From positions 1 to 20,745 of the forward strand of contig JAUXWS010000070.1 of NCBI GenBank assembly GCA_030685015.1: DNA of 20,745 nt, written 5' to 3'. Both the position numbers and the translations under genes were made by a program. The notes beneath the pieces are model-generated. The model saw only the letters and a list, made by a program, of their open reading frames with translations, was not told the DNA's origin and made no database searches. This DNA comes from a bacterium (lineage in GTDB: Bacteria; CAIWAD01). Within the stretch, counting starts at the first letter, position 1, and each line of letters starts with the position of its first letter. This document shows, one piece after another, positions 3,281-20,745 of this stretch.

Positions 3281-5662
3281 TCAGTAGAGGGCGGTCACCC
3301 GGTAGAAGAGCAGCGGGCCGGGCAGGGAGGTGCTCCAGGCCGGCGCCGCCGCTTCGCCCAGCAGGCTCCAGGCCTGCGGAAAGGGCAGGTCGGGGCGCGG
3401 GGCGCCGTAGATCCGATAGGCGGCGGGCGGACCCGGGGCGGGCGTCCAGCTGAGGTGGAGCTGCCCCGCGGCGGGCTGGTGCTGGATGGTCAGCCCGCTG
3501 AGGGCGGCCAAGTTGGTGGCGCCGGGACTGGGATGGGGAAAGGCGGTCCAGAGCGCGCCCCCGTCGGGCAGGCGGCCCTCGCTCTGGTCGGTCGTCTGGG
3601 GTCCGAAGACGCGGCTGTCGATCAAGCCGTTGCCCTGGTCCAGACGGCCGAAGAGGCCAATCTCCTCCCCGCTGGCGCCCAGCTTGAAGTTGGTGTGCAG
3701 CGGCCCGTCCTGGGGATCCTCGTCGCACCAGACGAGCAGGAAGGCGCCGCCGGGCAGCAGGGTGTCCGGCAGCATCCATTTGGTGCTGTTGGCCAGGTCG
3801 TCGGTCAGGAAGAGGCCGCCCAGATCCACGAGGGCGGGTCCCGGATTGAAGAGCTCCAGCCAGTCCTCCCGGGCTCCCGTCTCGTCTTGGAAACCGGTCT
3901 GGTTGCGGGCGACGAACTCGTTGATGAACAACACGGGCAACTCGGCTCCCGCGGGGTTCTGATTGGCTTCTCCCGGCGTGGCCAGGCTCAGCCTTTGCCA
4001 CGATCCGCCACCGTCCGGCCAGCGGCCCCAGGCCAGGTCGCGGGACAGGGCGATCCAGCTCGCTTCATCGATGATGCTGCCGCCCTGGACCAGGTAGAGA
4101 TCCTCCCCGTCGGCGTCCAGCTTGAAGCCAGCGTGTAAAGGCCCCTCCCCCGGCTCCTCGTCGGCCCAGACCAGCACCCGCCCACCCGGGGGCAGCACCA
4201 GGGCGGGGAAGACGAAGTCGGCCTCGCCCTCCCAATGGTCGCTCAGCCCCACACCGGCCAAATCCAGGGGAGTGTCGCCGCGGTTGAGGACCTCGATCCA
4301 GTCGTCGTAGTCGCCCGCCTCGTCGGCCACCGTGCTGGTGTTGGAGGCCATCAACTCGTTGATGACCAGGCCGGCGGGGGGAGTCCAGGCCCCGATCTGC
4401 TGGGTCAGCCAGCTGTGCCGGGCGTTGATGAAGGCGCGCAGGCCGGGGATGAGGCGTCCGGGCGGCGGCCCGCCGGGCGCGGTGAGGTCGGCGTCGAGGG
4501 CCGCCTCGAACTGGGCGGGGCTGAACATCATCAGGGTGTCGGCCAGGGCCCAGGGCCGGATCAGCTCGCGCAGGGCCTCCATCCGCCCCAGGAGGGTGTC
4601 GGGGTGCGCGGCGCCGGCCATCAACCGGCGCAGGTGCCCCAGGTAGGCCTGGTCCAGCTCCGGCACCTGCCAAAGGCGGGCGGCCAGGGGTCGCGGCTGG
4701 GCGGGCGGCAGCCAGTGGGGGTTCAGCTGGCGTAGCTGCTGCAGCGACAGGCCCATGTTGAAGACACCCCAGGCCTCATTCATGTCCCAGGTGGTGAAGA
4801 CGAAGCGGCCGTCCAGGTCCCGGTGGTAGAGGTAGTAGTTGTGCCCGCTGCCCGGATAGCTGTCCAGGTTGGCCGCCAGGTTGTCCACGGCCAGCATGGC
4901 CAACGCCGAGTTGAGATCGGCGCGGTTGTGCAGGCTGTCCCGCAGAGCGCCCGGGGGCGTGTTGTTGAGGGTGGCGGCCAGATCCACCAGGGCCGACCAG
5001 TCATTCTCCCCCTCGTTGGTCTTCAACTCGTAATGGGGGTGGTACGAGGTCTCATCGGGGCCCAGGTAGACCAGGCTGCCGCCGGGATCCCCCTTCCACA
5101 GGTTGCCGTCCTCGGATCCGCCCCAGCGGCTCTCGATGAATTCCTGGTCCACCTGCTCCACCAGCAGATAGAGGCCCCAGTACCGCCCGTTGATGAAGAG
5201 GGCGGCGTGGTTGGCGCGGGGGACGGCCAGGCCCGCCGCCCGGCACAGCTCGTAGGCGCTCTTCTCCCGCACGAAGCTGGGGTCGAGGTAGCAGTTGTTG
5301 AGGTTCAGCTTGTCCAGGCCGGCCAACTCCTGCCCGGCGACAAACTCGTCCAGATCCAGCTTGAAGGATTTCTTCTGCCCGTAGTAGCCCCAGTAGCTGC
5401 TGTTGCCCTTGAAGCGGACGCCGATGGAGTCCAGCGCCACGCCATTCCAGCTGAAGGCGGCGGCAAGATAGGGCGGATCGTCGAAGTCCTCGAAGTTGTG
5501 GGTGAGCTGCTCCCACCAGTCGGTCTGCGCAAAGTCGAGGTGGATCTCGTGCACGGCGTCGCCGGCGAAGAGGGGATGGTCGGCCGGGTGCAGGGCGCCC
5601 GCGGCGGGCAGCACGGCGGCCAGGATGGACATCCCGGCCAACAAGGCGTGGCAGACGATCAT
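3281..5662 (-). CDS. Secreted CotH-kinase family protein with two lamin-tail domains
   Basis: A 793-residue exported protein. Residues 1-23 form a signal peptide (hydrophobic run, ending AAGA). The CotH kinase domain spans about 35-420, with GVRFKGNSS (81-89), QKKSFKLDLDEF (96-107), LNLNN (119-123), INGRYWGLYLLVEQVD (157-172) and the metal-binding FTTWDMNEAWG (289-299). CotH proteins are atypical kinases that phosphorylate secreted proteins. Two lamin-tail (LTD) beta-domains follow, starting near 431 (LVINELMASN) and 577 (VLFINEFVARN), each with a DW(I/L)E motif. The last 75 residues resemble a fibronectin-III-like strand region. ATG at 5662 is chosen because GGGAG sits 7 bases upstream; an in-frame ATG at 5698 has a poorer site. 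The gene is separated from pyrC by 134 bp and stands alone. The substrate is unknown. No clear type IX secretion C-terminal signal is visible. Confidence 0.88.
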   Translation of the reverse strand: MIVCHALLAGMSILAAVLPAAGALHPADHPLFAGDAVHEIHLDFAQTDWWEQLTHNFEDFDDPPYLAAAFSWNGVALDSIGVRFKGNSSYWGYYGQKKSFKLDLDEFVAGQELAGLDKLNLNNCYLDPSFVREKSAYELCRAAGLAVPRANHAALFINGRYWGLYLLVEQVDQEFIESRWGGSEDGNLWKGDPGGSLVYLGPDETSYHPHYELKTNEGENDWSALVDLAATLNNTPPGALRDSLHNRADLNSALAMLAVDNLAANLDSYPGSGHNYYLYHRDLDGRFVFTTWDMNEAWGVFNMGLSLQQLRQLNPHWLPPAQPRPLAARLWQVPELDQAYLGHLRRLMAGAAHPDTLLGRMEALRELIRPWALADTLMMFSPAQFEAALDADLTAPGGPPPGRLIPGLRAFINARHSWLTQQIGAWTPPAGLVINELMASNTSTVADEAGDYDDWIEVLNRGDTPLDLAGVGLSDHWEGEADFVFPALVLPPGGRVLVWADEEPGEGPLHAGFKLDADGEDLYLVQGGSIIDEASWIALSRDLAWGRWPDGGGSWQRLSLATPGEANQNPAGAELPVLFINEFVARNQTGFQDETGAREDWLELFNPGPALVDLGGLFLTDDLANSTKWMLPDTLLPGGAFLLVWCDEDPQDGPLHTNFKLGASGEEIGLFGRLDQGNGLIDSRVFGPQTTDQSEGRLPDGGALWTAFPHPSPGATNLAALSGLTIQHQPAAGQLHLSWTPAPGPPAAYRIYGAPRPDLPFPQAWSLLGEAAAPAWSTSLPGPLLFYRVTALY

Positions 5663-5778
5663 GGAGAATCTCCCGCTGGTTGATCCCTCGCTCGGCATCC
5701 CGACGAGTCGTGTCAGCGCAGGGAGGACAGCGGGACGCGCCGAGCACAATCTGTAACGGGAAGACAGGGGGATTGTTT

Positions 5779-7242: not shown

Positions 7243-7440
7243 CACCGGGGGAGTACCAGGGCAACACCAGGGGAGCACCAGGGCAACGCCAGGGCAACAC
7301 CAGGGCAACACCAGGGCAACACCAGGGGAGCACCAGGGCAACACCAGGGCAACACCAGGGCAACACCAGGGCAACACCAGGGCAACACCAGGGCAACACC
7401 AGGGCAACACCAGGGCAACACCAGGGCAACACCAGGGCAA
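7243..7440. repeat. 11-bp tandem repeat array, about 18 copies
   Basis: The unit is CACCAGGGCAA on the plus strand, repeated head to tail without spacers. Eighteen units fit from 7243 to 7440, plus one decayed copy to 7451. Variant units are CACCGGGGGAG (first), TACCAGGGCAA (second), CACCAGGGGAG (third and eighth) and CGCCAGGGCAA (fifth); the distal ten are identical. Since 11 is not a multiple of 3, each frame reads the same 11-residue cycle, which explains the spurious open frames on both strands. The array occupies most of the 309-base gene-free stretch between pyrC (7158) and the DUF486 gene (7468), with its near edge about 85 bases upstream of pyrC. The rest of that stretch shows only the candidate pyrC promoter element. 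The period is close to one DNA helical turn. Confidence 0.95.
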
Positions 7441-7467
7441 CACCAAGCCCAATGCCGTCGAATTCCC

Positions 7468-12680: not shown

Positions 12681-14320
12681 TCAGACCCGGACAACACATC
12701 TGCATCAACCCAGCTTCCCGCATCTGGCTGCTCCTGCTGTTCCTGGCCCTGCTCGCCGTCTCCCTCAACAAGGGATTCTGGGGTGCCCACGGCGAGGCCC
12801 GGCGGGCCGAGGTGGCCCGGGAGACGCTCCAGGACGGCCATTGGCTGGTGCCAACCCTGCTGGGCGAACCCTTCGTCACCAAGCCGCCTCTCCTTTACTG
12901 GAGCAGCGCCGTGTCCATGGGCTTGTTCGGCGTCTCAGACTGGGCCGCCCGGCTGCCCGCCCTTGTGGCCACCCTGGGCAGCTGGCTGGCCATGCTTAGC
13001 CTGGGGCGCTCCTATGCGCGCGAGCTTCGCAAAGCCCGTGGACCTGGTCAGGCCGATGGGGATCTGGGGGCCGTGGCGCTCCTGGGCCTGCCCCTGGTCA
13101 TCGGGATGGGCCTCAACGCGGAGACAGAGCCTCTCCTGCTCTGTTTCGGCCTTGCCGCCGTCGCGGCGGTCCTGCGCTTGCCGCCCCGCGGCATGCCCCG
13201 GCCACGGGTGGTCCGTCTCCTGCCCGGCTTCTTCCTGGCGGCGGGTTTCCTGACGAAGGGGCCGCTGGGTTGGCTCTTCCCGCTCTTCGGCATCCTGGCC
13301 TTCGAGCGCGGGCTCCCTGTGGAGCGCCGACGCCTGGGCCGGAACGATGTGCTGGTGATCCTGCTCCTTCAGGCCATGCTGGTTTTGCCCTGGTTCATCC
13401 TGGTGATGGCCCGCCTGCCCGAAGCCTTGAATACGTGGGTGGGGAAAAGCGTGGCCCGCCTGGCGGATGCGGATTTCCAGGTGCATCGGGAGGCCTGGTG
13501 GTACTACTTGCCGCGGCTGGCCGCCTTGCTGCCCGCCCTGCTCTTCCTGGATCGCGGCGTGTGGCGGGACCGCATCGGACGCATCCCCCTCGTCTGGCTG
13601 GGCCTGGGCCTGCTCCTGCTCAGCCTGGCCGCCAGCAAGCGCACCCATTACCTGCTCTCCCTTGCCCCCGCCGCCGCCCTGCTCCCCGTGGCCGCCTCGG
13701 CGGCGGGACGCTGGGCGCGGGGGCGCGAAACCCTGCTGCGTGTCCTGGGCGCGGCCTTGCCTCTCCTGGCCGCGGCCGCCGCCCTGGTGCTATTGACGCG
13801 GGGTGGCCTGGAAGCCACGCCGCTGGTACTGGCTTCCGCGGCCTTGGGTGCCGTCGCCTCGGTCTGGCTCTGGCGGCAAAGTGGGGTCACCGGCCTGCAA
13901 CAGGTGGCGGCAGGTCTTTTGCTGGCCTTGGCCGCGGGAGCGGGGGGGCCGCTGCGCGCCGTGGACGCCTACCGCAGTCCCCGCCACTTCTATCAGTCCT
14001 GCGCCGAACTGACGGAGGAGCCGCTCCCCCTGATCAATTGGAGAAACGATCGCTACTCCACCTCCTTCTATCTGGGCCGCCCGGTCCCGCCCGCCCGTAG
14101 CGAAGAAGATCTGGATCGCCTGGCGCCCGGCGCGGCCTGGCTGCTCTGCCAGGCCGGGGATCTGGAGCCGCTGGCCCGACCGCATCGAGTCCGGCTGCGC
14201 CACGCCGTCCACGATCCCTTTCTGCCCTCACGGGTCCGCACCTGGCTGCTGGTGCGCTTGGAGCAGCCGGTCGCCACCCGCGAAACCGACAACTTGACAG
14301 GGAAAGGGACCACGCCATGA
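12677..14320 (+). CDS. ArnT/PMT-type membrane glycosyltransferase (GT39/GT83 superfamily)
   Basis: A 547-residue polytopic inner-membrane enzyme. The family hallmarks are visible at the N-terminus: GEARRAEVARETLQDGHWLVP (about 39-59, with E40 at the position of the catalytic acid), FVTKPPLLYWSSA and WAARLPAL. Downstream are LTKGPLGWLFPLFG and SKRTHYLLSLAP, followed by a soluble periplasmic C-terminal part. Such enzymes move a sugar from an undecaprenyl- or polyprenyl-phosphate carrier onto lipid A or a protein on the periplasmic side. The acceptor here is unknown. It overlaps by ATGA with both neighbours. The next gene would make the polyprenyl-phosphate sugar donor. Being in the same operon as exported multiheme cytochromes raises the possibility that those proteins or the outer membrane around them are modified. 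Confidence 0.88.
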   Translation: MIRPGQHICINPASRIWLLLLFLALLAVSLNKGFWGAHGEARRAEVARETLQDGHWLVPTLLGEPFVTKPPLLYWSSAVSMGLFGVSDWAARLPALVATLGSWLAMLSLGRSYARELRKARGPGQADGDLGAVALLGLPLVIGMGLNAETEPLLLCFGLAAVAAVLRLPPRGMPRPRVVRLLPGFFLAAGFLTKGPLGWLFPLFGILAFERGLPVERRRLGRNDVLVILLLQAMLVLPWFILVMARLPEALNTWVGKSVARLADADFQVHREAWWYYLPRLAALLPALLFLDRGVWRDRIGRIPLVWLGLGLLLLSLAASKRTHYLLSLAPAAALLPVAASAAGRWARGRETLLRVLGAALPLLAAAAALVLLTRGGLEATPLVLASAALGAVASVWLWRQSGVTGLQQVAAGLLLALAAGAGGPLRAVDAYRSPRHFYQSCAELTEEPLPLINWRNDRYSTSFYLGRPVPPARSEEDLDRLAPGAAWLLCQAGDLEPLARPHRVRLRHAVHDPFLPSRVRTWLLVRLEQPVATRETDNLTGKGTTP

Positions 14321-15219
14321 AGGTGCCCGAATACAGCCTGATTGTTCCGGTCTACAACGAGGAGGCCAGCGTGGGGCCGCTCGCCCTGGAGATCGAAGGG
14401 GCACTGGCCGGTCTGGAATGGGAGTGCATCTGGGTGGACGACGGTTCAACGGACGACACCCGCGATGCGCTGCGCGACCAGATTCGCCGTGAGGGACGGC
14501 ATCGCCTCATCGGCCTGGAGCGCAACGCCGGCCAGAGCGCCGCCCTGCTGGCGGGAATCCATGAAGCGCTGGGCTCCCTGCTGGGGACCCTGGATGGGGA
14601 CGGCCAGAACGACCCCGCCGACCTGCCACGCCTCATCGCCCATGGGCGGGAGTCCGGCGCGGACATGGTCAACGGCCGTCGCGCCGTGCGCCGCGGCACC
14701 TGGCGGCGTCGCCTCTCCTCGCGCATCGCCAACGGGTGGCGCAACGCCCTGACCGGCGAGCGGATAATGGATGTAGGCTGCTCGATCCGTGTCTTTCGTC
14801 GCGACTGCGTTCGTACCTTGCCGCCCTTCCGGGGCATGCACCGCTTCCTGCCGACCCTGGTGCGACTGGACGGTTGGCGCCTGGCGGAACTGGAGGTGGA
14901 ACATCGGCCCCGTCGTCAGGGCCTCTCCAAGTACGGGGTGGGCAACCGCCTGTGGGTGGGCATCCTCGACACCTTCGGCGTGATGTGGCTGAAGAGCCGA
15001 TTTGCCACGTGGCGGGTCGCCACAGACAGCCTGTCGGAGGTGGACCTGCGATGGCAGTCACGCCCATGTCGAGGGCCAGTCGGTGGGGATTTCGCGTCGC
15101 CCAATGGCATGTGCTCGCACGAAATCAGCGTCGAATGGGACCGGCAGGGGCGATGTCGACCGCGAGGTGGCCAAGTCCGACGGGCTGCTGAGAAAGGGGA
15201 GCGTGACCGGCAAAGCTGA
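14317..15219 (+). CDS. GT2 glycosyltransferase, DPM1/ArnC-like (odd C-terminal tail)
   Basis: A 300-residue product; the first about 232 residues are a GT-A fold family 2 transferase with VPVYNEE (10-16), DDGSTDDT (41-48), the metal-binding LDGDGQNDP (92-100) and HRPRRQGLSKYGVGNRLW (197-213). It most resembles polyprenyl-phosphate sugar synthases (DPM1, ArnC). The C-terminal membrane helices of GtrB/ArnC are absent, so it is probably membrane-associated from the cytoplasm. It is expected to charge a lipid carrier with sugar for the ArnT-like enzyme upstream. From about residue 244 to 300 the tail has no resemblance to the family, is rich in Arg/Gly, and third-position G+C drops sharply. A frameshift or recent stop-codon loss is likely, and the functional end may be near 15040-15060. 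The end overlaps the next start by 17 bases. Confidence 0.85.
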   Translation: MKVPEYSLIVPVYNEEASVGPLALEIEGALAGLEWECIWVDDGSTDDTRDALRDQIRREGRHRLIGLERNAGQSAALLAGIHEALGSLLGTLDGDGQNDPADLPRLIAHGRESGADMVNGRRAVRRGTWRRRLSSRIANGWRNALTGERIMDVGCSIRVFRRDCVRTLPPFRGMHRFLPTLVRLDGWRLAELEVEHRPRRQGLSKYGVGNRLWVGILDTFGVMWLKSRFATWRVATDSLSEVDLRWQSRPCRGPVGGDFASPNGMCSHEISVEWDRQGRCRPRGGQVRRAAEKGERDRQS

Positions 15220-16063
15220 TCATCGCCTGCGCCGGCCCCTGCTGGCCGTCCTTTACGCCATCACCCTGGCCGCGGTGGCCGGGTGGCTGGCCTCGGGCTG
15301 GGACTACTACCGGCTTGCGGCGACGGCCCGGCCGCGCCACCCCGACTATGCCCGCCTCACCTCCGGCGGCAGCCTGGGCCACCTCTTCGGCCTGGCCGGC
15401 TCCGCCCTCATCCTGATCCTTCTCCTCTACGTGGTGCGCAAGAGATGGAAGCGGCTGGCCCGCGCCGGATCCCTCCGCACCTGGTTGGACATCCACATCT
15501 GGATGGGCGTCACCGGGCCGCTCCTCATCGTCCTCCACTCCGCCTTCAAGGTGGGCGGACTGGTCGCCTTCTCCTACTGGTCGATGGTCCTGGTGGCCGT
15601 CTCGGGCGCGCTGGGCCGCTACCTCTACGGACAAATCCCGCGGGACGAGGAGGGCGTGGAACTGGATGCGGGCTCTCTCCAGACCCGCCAGGCGGCCCTG
15701 GAGGCGGATCTGGACGCCGCCGGCCTGCCCCTTGCGCTGCGCCGCGAAGTGGACCATCCGGCCGGGGGCCTCTCCTCCTGGTTGGCCCTGGACCTGGCCT
15801 GGCCCCTGAGGCGACGGCGCTGGCGGCGGGAGCTGGCGGCCGCCGGCCTGGCCGCTCCGACCCATGTCCTGGGCACCCTGCGCCGCCTGGAACTGCTGCG
15901 CCGCCGGCGGGTGGCCCTGGACCTGGCCCGCCGCCTGCTGCACCACTGGCATGTCTTCCACCGCCCCTTCGCCGCCATCATGATCCTCTTCATGATCATC
16001 CACGTGGTGGTCGCCCTGCTCTTCACCACCCAGCACGGCGCCCCGCCGCCGGTGGCGCCGTGA
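15203..16063 (+). CDS. Membrane cytochrome b-like subunit (two bis-His pairs)
   Basis: A 286-residue membrane protein. Helices lie at about 12-31, 60-78, 96-115, 120-142 and 253-275, with a basic cytoplasmic region between (about 145-250). H98 and H112 are 14 residues apart on one helix, and H253 and H267 are 14 apart on another, the classic spacing for two stacked b hemes as in cytochrome b-type quinone oxidoreductases. H60, H247, H248 and H250 are additional candidates. I do not recognise a named family; the role of a quinone-interacting electron-transfer subunit is inferred. GTG at 15203 is used (AAAGGGG just upstream, spacing short); an in-frame GTG at 15167 is the alternative. The stop overlaps the Fe-S/FAD gene by GTGA, so the two are probably one complex. 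Confidence 0.75.
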   Translation: MTGKADHRLRRPLLAVLYAITLAAVAGWLASGWDYYRLAATARPRHPDYARLTSGGSLGHLFGLAGSALILILLLYVVRKRWKRLARAGSLRTWLDIHIWMGVTGPLLIVLHSAFKVGGLVAFSYWSMVLVAVSGALGRYLYGQIPRDEEGVELDAGSLQTRQAALEADLDAAGLPLALRREVDHPAGGLSSWLALDLAWPLRRRRWRRELAAAGLAAPTHVLGTLRRLELLRRRRVALDLARRLLHHWHVFHRPFAAIMILFMIIHVVVALLFTTQHGAPPPVAP

Positions 16064-17412
16064 CCGGCGAACTTGCCCTCTACCTGGCCAGCGGCCTCCT
16101 CTGCGCGGCCGTCATCTTCTTCTATCTGCGGAGGGAGGAACGGCGCAACCGGGTGATGAGGACCCGCCTGGCGGAGGCCCAGGTCCGCGGCCTGACGGAG
16201 CCGGCCAGCCTCCATCCGCGCATCGATCCGGGGCGCTGTGTGGGAAGCGGCGCCTGCGTCCGGGCCTGCCCCGAGCACCACGTCATCGGGCTGGTGGACA
16301 ACAAGGCCGTCCTCATCAACGCCTCCGCCTGCGTGGGCCATGGGGCCTGCGAGGCCTCCTGCCCGGTGGAGGCGATCGACCTTGTCTTCGGCACGGCGCG
16401 GCGCGGCGTGGAACTGCCCCGGGTGCGCCCCACCTACGAGACCAACGTGCCCGGCCTTTACATCGCCGGCGAGCTGGGCGGCATGGGCCTCATCCGCAAC
16501 GCGGTGAATCAGGGGACGCAGGCTGCGACGGCCATCGCCGCCTCGCTGCGCGGCCAGCCCGCCACGGACCCGGAGCAGCATGATCTGCTCGTGGTGGGAG
16601 CCGGCCCGGCCGGTCTCGCCGCCGCGCTGCAGGCCCAGCTGGACGGACTGCGGGCGGTTGTGGTCGAGCAGGACTCGCCGGGCGGCACCATCCTGCACTA
16701 CCCTCGCCGCAAGCTGGTGATGACCCAGCCCATGTGTTTGCCCGGCGAGGAGCCTCTGCGGCGTCGGGAGATCGGCAAGGAGGAGCTGTTGGAACTCCTC
16801 GCCGCCACGCTGGACCGACGCCGCCCGACCCTGCATTGCGGTGAGCAGGTGGTCCAGGTGCGGGCGGAGGCGGACGGCTTCCATCTGGGGACGAGGCGGG
16901 CCGACGGCGGCACGGCGGTGTGGCGCGCCCGTCGTGTGCTGCTGGCCATCGGCCGCCGGGGGACCCCTCGTCGCCTGGGCGTGCCCGGTGAGGAGCAGGG
17001 CATCGTGCAGTACCAACTGCGCGATCCGGAGCAGTTCGCCGGCCTGGCTTGCGTGGTGGCGGGCGGCGGCGACTCGGCGATCGAGGGGGCGCTACGCCTG
17101 GCGGCGGCGGGAGCGGCCTCGGTGGACCTTGTGCACCGCGGCGGATCCTTCGTGCGGGCGCGGTTGCCCAACCAGGACGCCCTGCGCGAAGCCGCCGCCG
17201 CGGGCCGGATCCGCGTCCACCTGGACTCCCTGCCGGTGCGGGTCCAGGCCTCCGGGCTGGAGATCGCCGGTGGCGGCGCGACGACGCTCCTGCCCGCGGG
17301 CCTGGTCCTTGTGCAGATCGGCGGCGAGTTGCCCACCGGGCTCCTGCGGCAGGCGGGCGTGGTCATCGACACCCACTTCGGCCGTCAGGTGCGGCGGGGG
17401 GATGCCGCGTGA
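16060..17412 (+). CDS. Membrane-anchored Fe-S/FAD-dependent pyridine nucleotide-disulfide-type oxidoreductase, permuted
   Basis: A 450-residue protein. An N-terminal membrane helix (about 5-23) is followed by a two-motif ferredoxin region: CVGSGACVRACP (60-71) and CVGHGACEASCP (91-102). Each has three cysteines; the usual second Cys is Ser63 and His94. Residues 127-160 (ETNVPGLYIAGELGG and on) look like the C-terminal FAD-contacting cap of thioredoxin-reductase-like enzymes, placed before the FAD Rossmann motif VVGAGPAGLAAAL (178-190). The NAD(P) Rossmann motif is VVAGGGDSAIEGAL (332-345). The protein ends soon after LVLVQIGGELPTGLL without a second cap, so the order is permuted. There is no redox-active CxxC. 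Likely role: electron exchange between NAD(P)H or ferredoxin and the adjacent cytochrome b. GTG at 16060 overlaps the previous stop. Confidence 0.85.
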   Translation: MTGELALYLASGLLCAAVIFFYLRREERRNRVMRTRLAEAQVRGLTEPASLHPRIDPGRCVGSGACVRACPEHHVIGLVDNKAVLINASACVGHGACEASCPVEAIDLVFGTARRGVELPRVRPTYETNVPGLYIAGELGGMGLIRNAVNQGTQAATAIAASLRGQPATDPEQHDLLVVGAGPAGLAAALQAQLDGLRAVVVEQDSPGGTILHYPRRKLVMTQPMCLPGEEPLRRREIGKEELLELLAATLDRRRPTLHCGEQVVQVRAEADGFHLGTRRADGGTAVWRARRVLLAIGRRGTPRRLGVPGEEQGIVQYQLRDPEQFAGLACVVAGGGDSAIEGALRLAAAGAASVDLVHRGGSFVRARLPNQDALREAAAAGRIRVHLDSLPVRVQASGLEIAGGGATTLLPAGLVLVQIGGELPTGLLRQAGVVIDTHFGRQVRRGDAA

Positions 17413-19088
17413 AACCTTGCCCCTGGCTCTTCCTGCTTGCCTGGCTGCTGCCCCTGGCCGCCGCGGCGCAGCTCTCGCCGGGCAAGTTGGCCCTCCCCCA
17501 CCAGCAGTTGGAAGGCCTGGGCAAGTGCACATCCTGTCACGAACTGGGGAAGCCGGTGGACGGCGCCCGCTGCCTGGCCTGCCACACCACGCTGGCGGCG
17601 CGCATCCGGGAGGGCCGGGGTTTCCATGCCTCCCGCCGCGTGCGACAGGCCGCCTGCGTCTCCTGCCACAGCGACCACCATGGGCGGGACTTCCAGTTGA
17701 TCCACTGGGAGAAGGGCGAGGCGGGCTTCGACCACGCCGAGGCCGGTTGGAAGCTGGAGGGCGCCCATGCCGGGACGGACTGCCGCGCCTGCCATCGGTG
17801 GGAGTTGATGGATCCTGTCCTGGCCGCGGCCAGGGACCTCAATCCGGCGCGCAGCTACCTGGGTCAGGCGCGCGACTGCCTGGCCTGCCACCGGGACGAG
17901 CACCAGGGCCAGCTGGGCTCCGACTGCGCCACCTGCCACGACGCCCGCGCCTGGACTCCGGCGCGCTTCGACCACGATGCCACGCGCTTCCCCCTCACCG
18001 GCGCCCACGCCACGACGCGCTGCGCCGCCTGCCACAAGCCCGAGCTGCCGCGACCCGCCGAGGGCCGCTTCGTGGTCGATGATGCGCCTGCGGCCGGGGC
18101 GGCCCGCTTCAAGCCCCTGGCTTCTGCCCGCTGCACCGACTGCCACCGCGATCCTCACGAGGACCGGCTGGGTCCGGATTGCGGCGGCTGTCACAGCACC
18201 GAGTCCTTCCAGATCCGCAGCGGCAGCTTCGACCACGGGCGGACCCGCTATCCACTCACCGGCGCCCACCGCCAGGTGGCCTGCGCCGACTGTCACAAGG
18301 GCGCCGAGCCCGCCCGTCGGCGTCCGCCCTTCCCGGAGTGCTCCGCCTGCCACCAGGATCCGCACGGCGGCCAGTTCAGCCGGACAGGACGCGCACAGGC
18401 CTGTGCCGACTGCCACGACACGGAGCGATTCCGGCCCTCCCGTTTCGGCCTGGCCCGCCACCAGGAGAGTCGCGCCCCCCTCGAAGACGCTCATCTGGCC
18501 GTGGCCTGCGACGATTGCCACACCCGCCCGGCGGCGGCCGCTCCCGTCCGCTACGACCTGGGCGGACGCGCTTTCTCCGGGCAGGCCTGCGCCGACTGCC
18601 ACGGCGACCCGCACGGAGGGGAGGCCCGGCCCTGGATGGGGGAGGACGGGTGCCGCCACTGCCACGGACTGAAAGAATGGAGAGGCCGCTCCTTCGATCA
18701 TGAGCGGACGGAGTTCCGGCTGAGGGGCCGACATGCCGCGGTGGAGTGCGGCGCCTGCCACCGGGTGGGCGCGGTGACGGATCCCATCCGGGTTCCGCTC
18801 AAGGGGCTCAGCCGGGATTGCGCCGGCTGCCATGCCGACCCCCATCGCGCCCAGTTCGCGACGGCGGAGCGGGGCCCCGACTGCGCCTCCTGCCACCAGA
18901 GCACAGGGTGGCGGGAGACCCGCTTCTCCCACGACGAGAGCCGCTTCCCCCTCGACGGCCGCCACCGCGACCTGGCCTGCGCCGCCTGCCACCGCCCGGA
19001 GCAGGACGCCGAGGGACACTTCATCCGTTACCGGCCGCTGGGCATCCGCTGCGAGGATTGCCACGGCCCCGGCGCGGGAGGGAGTTGA
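17409..19088 (+). CDS. Exported multiheme c-type cytochrome, 20 CxxCH motifs
   Basis: A 559-residue protein with a signal peptide (residues 1 to about 20, KPCPWLFLLAWLLPLAAAA then Q) and 20 CxxCH heme-binding motifs, so one motif per about 27 residues. No transmembrane helix follows. A repeated pattern is visible: CxxCH with (R/Q/A)DPH or RDEH, then LGxDCxxCH, then FDH with TRFPLTGAH, then CxxCH, which is a three-heme module related to that of the next gene. The histidines in FDH, GAH and DPH are good candidates for distal heme ligands. GTG at 17409 overlaps the oxidoreductase stop (GTGA). Apocytochrome is exported and matured outside the inner membrane. It is likely to take electrons from the membrane module and pass them to the downstream cytochrome. 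Confidence 0.93.
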   Translation: MKPCPWLFLLAWLLPLAAAAQLSPGKLALPHQQLEGLGKCTSCHELGKPVDGARCLACHTTLAARIREGRGFHASRRVRQAACVSCHSDHHGRDFQLIHWEKGEAGFDHAEAGWKLEGAHAGTDCRACHRWELMDPVLAAARDLNPARSYLGQARDCLACHRDEHQGQLGSDCATCHDARAWTPARFDHDATRFPLTGAHATTRCAACHKPELPRPAEGRFVVDDAPAAGAARFKPLASARCTDCHRDPHEDRLGPDCGGCHSTESFQIRSGSFDHGRTRYPLTGAHRQVACADCHKGAEPARRRPPFPECSACHQDPHGGQFSRTGRAQACADCHDTERFRPSRFGLARHQESRAPLEDAHLAVACDDCHTRPAAAAPVRYDLGGRAFSGQACADCHGDPHGGEARPWMGEDGCRHCHGLKEWRGRSFDHERTEFRLRGRHAAVECGACHRVGAVTDPIRVPLKGLSRDCAGCHADPHRAQFATAERGPDCASCHQSTGWRETRFSHDESRFPLDGRHRDLACAACHRPEQDAEGHFIRYRPLGIRCEDCHGPGAGGS

Positions 19089-19089
19089 G

Positions 19090-20745
19090 ATGGGCAACTG
19101 GCTGATCCTGCTGACGCTGCTGCTGGCGCTGTGCGGCGGCCCGAGGCCGACCTGGGGCGCCCTCGTCAGCCCGCACGGACCTCTCACCATCGCCTGCGGG
19201 GCCTGTCACGCCACGACGGGCTGGTCCCTGCGGAGCGAGGCGGAGTTCAACCATGACCGCGACAGTTCCTGGCCGCTGGCGGGCCGCCATCGGGAGGTCG
19301 CCTGCGCCGCCTGCCATCTCGACCTGCGCTTCCGCGACACGCCGGGCGCCTGTGCCGACTGCCATCTGGATCTCCACCAGGGAGCGCTGGGCCCGGACTG
19401 CGGCGGGTGCCACAGCCCGGCCCGCTGGTTCGATCGCACCCTGCTGGAGCGGCGCCACGAGCGCAGCCTCTTCCCGCTCACGGGCGCCCACCGCGGCCTG
19501 GACTGCCGGGCCTGCCATCCCGGCAGCGGCGCCGGGCAGTTCGCCGGCGCCCCGCTGGAGTGCGCGGCCTGCCACGCGGGCGACTACCTCGCCACCGCGA
19601 GGCCGGTCCATGGGGAGGGCGGCCTGGGCACGAACTGCGCCCAGTGTCACAGCACGGCGCGCTGGGCCACCCCCGGTGGTTTCCAGCACGACGCCTTTCC
19701 CCTGCTGGGCCGGCACGCCGCCGCCAGCTGCGTCTCCTGCCACGAGGGCGGACGCTTCGACCTGGCGCCCGCCCACTGCGCCGGTTGCCATGCAGCGGCC
19801 TGGCAGGCTTCCGCCGATCCCCGCCACGTGGCGGCCGGCTTCAGCCAGGGTTGCGCCGTCTGCCACGACGAGCAGGGCTGGCGCCCATCCGCCTACAGCC
19901 ACGCCGCCGCCACCGGCTATGAGCTGGACGGCGCCCACGGGGCGCTCTCCTGTGCCCGGTGCCATGTCGGCCAGCAGTACGCGGGAACCAGCAGCCTCTG
20001 CGCGACCTGCCATCTGGCTGACTACCAGGCCGCCGGCGAACCTGCGCATCAGGCGCCGGGCTACCCGCTGGATTGCGCGCTGTGTCACACGAGGGAGTCC
20101 TGGCAGGGCGTCGGCTTCGACCACCAGGCGACGGACTTCCCTCTGCTGGATGCGCATGTCGCGGTCTTCTGCGTGGATTGCCACCTGGGCGGAAACTTCA
20201 CGATGACGCCCACGGACTGCTTCTCCTGCCATCAGGCAAGCTTCGTGGAGACAACCGATCCGGCCCACGAGGCCAACCTCTTTCCGCAGGACTGCACGGG
20301 TTGCCACAACCAGACGGCCTGGTCCCCCTCCACCCTGGATCACGACCTGACGGACTTCGCCCTGAGTGGGGCCCACCTCGCGGTCAACTGCGCGGACTGC
20401 CACACAAACGGACGCTTCGTCGACCTGCCGGCCGCCTGTTGGGCCTGCCACGAGCCGGACTACCAGCAGGCGACCCATCCCGACCACGCCGACAACCAGT
20501 TCTCCCAGGACTGCGCCACCTGCCACAGCACGGCCGCCTGGCAGCCGGCCACCTTCGACCACGACCTGACGGACTTCCCGCTCACCGGCGCCCACGTCGC
20601 CGTCAGCTGCGCGGCCTGCCACGTGGGCGGCCAGTACACGGAGCTCGACGGGGCCTGCTGGGCCTGCCACGAGCCGGACTACCAGCAGGCGACCAATCCC
20701 GACCACGCCGCCAACCAGTTCTCCCAGGACTGCGCCACCTGCCAC
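19090..20745 (+). CDS. Large exported multiheme c-type cytochrome, at least 22 CxxCH motifs (partial)
   Basis: The gene is open from ATG 19090 to the window edge: 552 codons with 22 CxxCH motifs, the last ending on the final base. The N-terminus MGNWLILLTLLLALCGGP and on is hydrophobic, a signal peptide with little positive charge; LALC is not a good lipobox. From heme 3 onward the protein is a run of three-heme modules of 70-74 residues beginning at 19351, 19561, 19777, 19999, 20218, 20437 and 20656. The module pattern is CxxCHxxDY, a short linker, CxxCHxxxxW, then FDHxxTDFPLTGAHVAVxCxxCHxGG. It starts one base after the previous stop, with GGAG upstream. Family knowledge suggests an extracellular or outer-surface electron carrier. 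The total size and any C-terminal anchor are unknown. Confidence 0.92.
   Translation, partial: MGNWLILLTLLLALCGGPRPTWGALVSPHGPLTIACGACHATTGWSLRSEAEFNHDRDSSWPLAGRHREVACAACHLDLRFRDTPGACADCHLDLHQGALGPDCGGCHSPARWFDRTLLERRHERSLFPLTGAHRGLDCRACHPGSGAGQFAGAPLECAACHAGDYLATARPVHGEGGLGTNCAQCHSTARWATPGGFQHDAFPLLGRHAAASCVSCHEGGRFDLAPAHCAGCHAAAWQASADPRHVAAGFSQGCAVCHDEQGWRPSAYSHAAATGYELDGAHGALSCARCHVGQQYAGTSSLCATCHLADYQAAGEPAHQAPGYPLDCALCHTRESWQGVGFDHQATDFPLLDAHVAVFCVDCHLGGNFTMTPTDCFSCHQASFVETTDPAHEANLFPQDCTGCHNQTAWSPSTLDHDLTDFALSGAHLAVNCADCHTNGRFVDLPAACWACHEPDYQQATHPDHADNQFSQDCATCHSTAAWQPATFDHDLTDFPLTGAHVAVSCAACHVGGQYTELDGACWACHEPDYQQATNPDHAANQFSQDCATCH
19351..20745 (+). repeat. Tandem three-heme coding modules, about 219 bp each
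   Basis: Seven module starts at spacings of 210, 216, 222, 219, 219 and 219 bases. The last two copies visible are almost identical at DNA level: 87 of 90 bases match between 20437-20526 and 20656-20745. Older copies keep the pattern but differ in sequence. This indicates internal tandem duplication, with the 3' side recent or homogenised. The array continues past the window. Confidence 0.9.

Follow-up and report, generated by a model that had tools for sequence, protein, structure and literature searches.

A PCC3 porin-cytochrome complex with a conserved FeS-flavoprotein as its probable cytoplasmic arm in a sparsely sampled bacterial lineage

The window, by which we mean the whole 20,745-nucleotide stretch of DNA analysed here, carries much of a PCC3 porin-cytochrome system from a thinly sampled lineage, together with a conserved oxidoreductase that is probably its cytoplasmic arm. 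Many iron-oxidising bacteria have PCC3 conduits, and the working model for them stops at the quinone pool; a conserved partner in the form of an NAD(P)-binding flavoprotein would define where PCC3 ends in the cytoplasm and allow its direction and purpose to be tested simply, and the partner's gene would serve as a second marker for PCC3. We estimate a probability of roughly 0.6 that the operon encodes a porin-cytochrome conduit with a cytoplasmic oxidoreductase arm, operating through the electron chain proposed below. ORF positions and translations confirm the four genes that a sequence-only reading had placed at 15203-20745, and the features of this region are as follows.

15203..16063, + strand: bis-heme cytochrome b, identified as the inner-membrane protein (IMP) of PCC3 from its 286-aa translation, motif patterns and homologue alignment
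16060..17412, + strand: membrane-anchored FeS-FAD-NAD(P) oxidoreductase of 450 aa (the FeS-FAD protein), from Pfam, model and PDB matches
16237..16362, + strand: two FeS-cluster motifs inside the FeS-FAD gene, from an alignment of 31 homologues
17409..19088, + strand: cytochrome 1, an exported 20-heme cytochrome of 559 aa, the PCC3 periplasmic cytochrome, from the CXXCH count, Cytochrome_C7 and homologous operons
19090..20745, + strand: N-terminal part of cytochrome 2, an exported repeat cytochrome with 22 hemes visible, the PCC3 extracellular cytochrome, from the CXXCH count, its continuation and synteny
20215..20745, + strand: direct repeats of 219 nt, each coding for 73 aa and three hemes, where the assembly is interrupted, from a repeat search with copies spaced 219 nt

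The genes are joined by GTGA overlaps at the first two junctions and separated by a 1-base gap at the third, matching the earlier description. The 42 CXXCH motifs reported there for the two exported cytochromes (20 + 22) were recovered by pattern count and are not due to chance, because about 0.5 would be expected in shuffled sequence; composition-matched shuffled proteins gave means of 0.24 for cytochrome 1 and 0.29 for the window part of cytochrome 2. Cytochrome 1 has 27.9 aa per heme, a signal-like N-terminus and a Pfam match to Cytochrome_C7, and its counterparts in homologous operons mostly carry 17-24 hemes. Cytochrome 2 consists of 73-aa repeats, whose 219-nt spacing is found both in the window and on a second contig of the same genome (C66, locus L009), and it has at least 34 hemes, 34 being the number in the simplest join of the two contigs. 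Two other candidate relationships were rejected: matches to the Ext selenite/tellurite operon (ExtN/ExtO) reached only about 25 bits, across a 44-residue stretch at heme motifs, and those of cytochrome 2 to cytochrome c nitrite reductases in a PDB sequence search were at chance level, again at heme motifs.

The window ends where its contig (C70) ends. The sequence-only reading had seen no porin-like gene, which is correct for the window itself; extension past 20745, the check it had proposed, nevertheless places a barrel beyond the contig end, on C66, along with the remainder of cytochrome 2 and a further cytochrome. The C66 genes, joined through ATGA overlaps, are as follows.

L009:2-982: C-terminal half of cytochrome 2
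L009:979-2532: predicted outer-membrane beta-barrel, 517 aa
L009:2529-3605: third cytochrome, 13-heme

C66 starts inside the same 219-bp heme repeat in which C70 ends, and its first 19 bases are identical to the last 19 of the window. A genome of the same genus (G001, locus L040) has the operon unbroken, in the order cytochrome b, FeS-FAD protein, 20-heme cytochrome, 43-heme cytochrome, barrel and 19-heme cytochrome; the genes flanking the operon are shared as well, and the C70 and C66 proteins map there in order. The join of the two contigs is well supported because of this combination of repeat, 19-base overlap and unbroken same-genus synteny, and the assembly may lack about three repeat units, which span 640 bp in the relative. 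The C-terminal half of cytochrome 2 consists of further heme repeats rather than the catalytic domain that would have spoken against a conduit. A fragment of C66 also matched Shiga toxin B, which we dismiss as a weak chance match over about 22 residues within a heme repeat.

The 517-aa protein had no Pfam or NCBIfam match. An iterative profile search connected it with a 48-member family from related loci, including proteins beside Gallionella and Sideroxydans cytochromes, and we modelled a 529-aa homologue from the same genus (pLDDT 72.4, pTM 0.58). The model has a small N-terminal domain followed mostly by long beta strands, and nearly all of its top PDB matches are outer-membrane barrels, porins first. 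From family and model, the protein is predicted to be an outer-membrane barrel, a prediction that is clear as to class and not as to strand number.

PCC3 was described in 2017 in Alpha-, Beta- and Gammaproteobacteria, and the PCC3 passages of that paper (He et al. 2017, PMC5566968) give as its signature an IMP of about 300 aa with five TM helices, SGxxG and two WX3HX13H motifs, beside a periplasmic cytochrome of about 21 hemes and an extracellular cytochrome with a median of 34. The window cytochrome b has five hydrophobic TM stretches in 286 aa, SGxxG as SGALG at residue 134, and two WX3HX13H motifs at 94-112 and 249-267 by pattern search. The latter supply candidate heme-b ligands (H98/H112 and H253/H267) within hydrophobic stretches, as anticipated by the bis-heme assignment made earlier; SGxxG and the four His are invariant among 24 aligned homologues. 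A PDB profile search with the cytochrome b family as query gave no real match. Cytochrome 1, with 20 CXXCH and its signal-like N-terminus, is predicted to be periplasmic, cytochrome 2, with 34 hemes in the simplest join, is predicted to lie at the surface, and the barrel (L009:979-2532) forms one family with those of Gallionella and Sideroxydans. On this sequence evidence the window operon and the C66 genes are a PCC3 porin-cytochrome complex. The earlier judgement that the set is not one of the well-known Mtr, Omc/Omb or Cbc systems stands insofar as the MtrA/MtoA model scores below its cut-off, and falls insofar as the system is of a known kind, PCC3.

In the PCC3 passages of PMC5566968 and, for Gallionellaceae, PMC10734462, published PCC3 share with the present system a porin, very heme-rich periplasmic and extracellular cytochromes, a five-TM IMP, a low residue-to-heme ratio and repeats in the cytochromes. 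The present operon differs from them in including the FeS-FAD gene and an extra 13-heme cytochrome, and in having a host outside the Alpha-, Beta- and Gammaproteobacteria, which extends the range of PCC3 well beyond Proteobacteria. MtrCAB/MtoAB likewise combine a periplasmic cytochrome, an outer-membrane barrel and a surface cytochrome, but cytochrome 1 has twenty hemes rather than ten, and the inner-membrane partner is a bis-heme b protein where Mtr has CymA; assignment of cytochrome 1 to Mtr/Mto (DmsE family) was rejected at 51.1 bits for TIGR03508, against a curated cut-off of 192.2. The PCC3 passages of the papers searched demonstrate a conducting trans-outer-membrane complex for no PCC3, and those of PMC12442390 describe PCC3 function as still untested.

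The FeS-FAD protein has a single N-terminal TM helix (residues 5-23), a di-cluster ferredoxin domain (52-110) and an FAD/NAD(P) domain (175-440), with Pfam matches to Pyr_redox_3, Pyr_redox_2 and Fer4 families, in agreement with the membrane-anchored NAD(P)- and FAD-binding Fe-S protein of the first description. Its structure was modelled with high scores (pLDDT 90.4, pTM 0.81), and its closest PDB matches are Bdr/YpdA and TrxR-like ferredoxin-NADP reductases. It shares with these the fold, the FAD and NAD(P) domains and the lack of the thioredoxin-reductase CxxC redox disulfide; unlike them, it also carries a membrane anchor and a di-cluster ferredoxin domain in the same chain, and has Ala where Cys is expected in the GAGPAG loop. 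TrxR-fold FAD and NAD(P) domains free of CxxC are what marks a TrxR-like ferredoxin-NADP reductase, whereas thioredoxin reductase and bacillithiol reductase are ruled out by the missing active-site cysteines. Cluster I reads C60-x5-C66-x3-C70P, with the second Cys replaced by Ser63, and cluster II reads C91-x2-H94-x2-C97-x3-C101P. Among 31 aligned homologues the six Cys and His94 are invariant and no other Cys is conserved; the second position is mostly Ser or another non-Cys residue in cluster I and His in 31/31 proteins, across phyla, in cluster II, and the cluster type is uncertain because of these second ligands. Fold and motif together suggest that the protein uses NAD(P)H.

A scan of species genomes returned at least 546 relatives of the FeS-FAD protein, the best 80 of which were used for a survey of loci. 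These best 80 came from Pseudomonadota, Nitrospirota, Nitrospinota, Bacteroidota, Myxococcota, Calditrichota, KSB1, Zixiibacteriota, Electryoneota, Krumholzibacteriota and Latescibacterota, and at least one PCC3 component lay near the FeS-FAD gene in 73 of the 80, in about ten phyla; seven loci had no visible PCC3 component, some of them on short contigs. The gene set is thus conserved together across about ten phyla, as a neighbourhood search suggested earlier would need to find and contrary to the outcome that would have counted against an operon. Since these loci had been picked by their FeS-FAD gene, we searched an independent set of 80 Gallionellaceae genomes, in which 32 had both the FeS-FAD protein and the IMP, one only the IMP, two only the FeS-FAD protein and 45 neither (Fisher p = 8e-19, a descriptive value because related genomes are not independent). 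Of the 35 FeS-FAD genes, 28 lay no more than 1.5 kb from the IMP gene. Among 60 relatives of the window genome, the IMP was present in all seven with a strong FeS-FAD match, and three (G037, G044 and G047) had weaker IMP matches and no FeS-FAD gene; within the window genus, PCC3 with the oxidoreductase arm is present in G001 and absent from G002 (about 91% complete). By these sequence comparisons, the FeS-FAD protein and the PCC3 IMP show near-obligate co-occurrence.

Relative to the literature searched, the FeS-FAD protein appears to be a new, fifth component of PCC3. No FeS-FAD-like protein is named in the PCC3 passages of that literature, supplements, preprints and most subscription papers aside, and searches for a TrxR-like reductase with a porin and for the gene numbers adjoining the ES-1 PCC3 clusters found no paper. 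An unplaced cluster under the name '4Fe-4S ferredoxin iron-sulfur binding domain protein' appears in the PCC3 passages of PMC10734462, for 41/87 genomes, and may or may not be the FeS-FAD protein. The FeS-FAD and cytochrome b genes overlap or adjoin on one strand in the window and in many non-proteobacterial loci, and are divergent in many proteobacterial loci, which may be why the protein was left out of PCC3. Variants of the locus were also seen: in L069, L075, L084, L099 and L103, of Myxococcota type, a shorter barrel (about 410 aa) and the FeS-FAD gene adjoin single cytochromes of 51-66 CXXCH, and a variant operon at L043:8441-16540 has two cytochrome b genes, a membrane-anchored cytochrome with 10 hemes and a TPR protein between the FeS-FAD protein and the 20-heme cytochrome.

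The idea first proposed, that the operon conducts electrons between the cytoplasmic side and the outside of the cell, is well supported by the barrel and third cytochrome on C66 and by conservation across phyla. The chain we propose is NAD(P)H <-> FAD <-> FeS <-> two hemes b <-> 20-heme wire <-> barrel <-> repeat cytochromes <-> outside. The TrxR-like domain would exchange two electrons with NAD(P)H through FAD, and the FeS clusters would hand single electrons to cytochrome b, giving the layout of NADPH oxidase with an added FeS relay; the 20-heme cytochrome would carry electrons over the periplasm to the barrel, and the repeat cytochromes would exchange them with an extracellular substrate or partner. 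The order from NAD(P)H through FAD to two stacked hemes b would be the one found in NADPH oxidases and ferric reductases, and cytochrome b matches PF01794 (Ferric_reduct) weakly, slightly under the cut-off; the window has instead of their ferredoxin-reductase-type domain a separate TrxR-like flavoprotein with FeS, and its electrons would continue into a cytochrome wire. The FeS-FAD protein probably links the heme wire to cellular NAD(P)H, against which stand several FeS-FAD loci that have no visible PCC3 set and the phage contigs, described below, that carry the FeS-FAD gene alone. A bolder generalisation, that PCC3 in about ten phyla wires the NAD(P)H pool directly, independently of quinone, to the cell outside, with the FeS-FAD protein as its overlooked near-obligate fifth component and a homologue on some large phages, is tentative, and we place it below even odds.

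Cytochrome b may use quinone instead or as well, as proposed in the PCC3 passages of He et al. 2017 (PMC5566968). The corresponding alternative, in which its redox partner is the quinone pool, electrons usually run inward from Fe(II) or minerals to a terminal oxidase, and the FeS-FAD protein sits on a side branch, follows that model and draws on the frequent quinone activity of bis-heme cytochromes b, on the occurrence of PCC3 in iron oxidisers and on the heme-copper oxidases of the host genomes. We regard it as less likely: it does not account for an NAD(P)-binding FeS flavoprotein that is adjacent and co-occurs almost perfectly, and both PCC3 clusters of Sideroxydans lithotrophicus ES-1 are downregulated on Fe(II), according to the PCC3 passages of PMC8788666. 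For the NAD(P)H-linked conduit, we lean weakly towards outward flow, to an extracellular acceptor, because the potential difference and the membrane voltage both favour it. Bioenergetically, outward flow is the less demanding; to run inward, the conduit would need a low-potential donor. Genome context does not settle the direction, since all seven PCC3-bearing genomes examined have heme-copper oxidases.

Inward flow all the way to NADP+, from extracellular electrons through cytochrome b, FeS and FAD, would give autotrophs reducing power independently of reverse electron transport, and both the resemblance of the flavin domain to ferredoxin-NADP reductases and the presence of PCC3 in autotrophic iron oxidisers speak for it. 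From Fe(II) at neutral pH such a path would run uphill and against the membrane voltage, requiring a low-potential donor or an unseen coupling, and PCC3 is also found in named Alphaproteobacteria isolates not known here as iron oxidisers; we therefore consider it improbable. Least credible is a role for the FeS-FAD protein outside the electron path, as a maturation or thiol-reducing factor for heme-rich cytochromes: its thioredoxin-reductase superfamily membership and its association with cytochromes bearing very many CXXCH sites would suit such a factor, but it lacks the CxxC, has Ala in the GAGPAG loop, and conserves cysteines solely as cluster ligands.

The FeS-FAD protein also has homologues on seven large phage contigs from IMG/VR (within L126-L139), up to 328 kb long, with L133:10001-11302 as an example gene. 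They are 44-46% identical to the window protein, keep the TM helix and the clusters, and branch within the Pseudomonadota part of the tree. Their neighbours are likely ribonucleotide reductase genes and tail, exonuclease and homing-endonuclease genes; no PCC3 cytochromes lie near them on the IMG/VR contigs, and no match was found among GenBank phages. Why large freshwater phages carry this homologue is a question that these contigs raise.

Elsewhere in the window, a family 2 glycosyltransferase (14317-15219) overlaps the start of cytochrome b by 17 bases, and alignment with its same-genus homologue fails over the final 66 residues, a possible frameshift. The minus strand at 3284-5671 encodes a CotH kinase protein that carries lamin-tail domains and has no connection with the conduit, and 17 tandem copies of the 11-mer ACCAGGGCAAC at 7255-7445 adjoin a dihydroorotase-like ORF.
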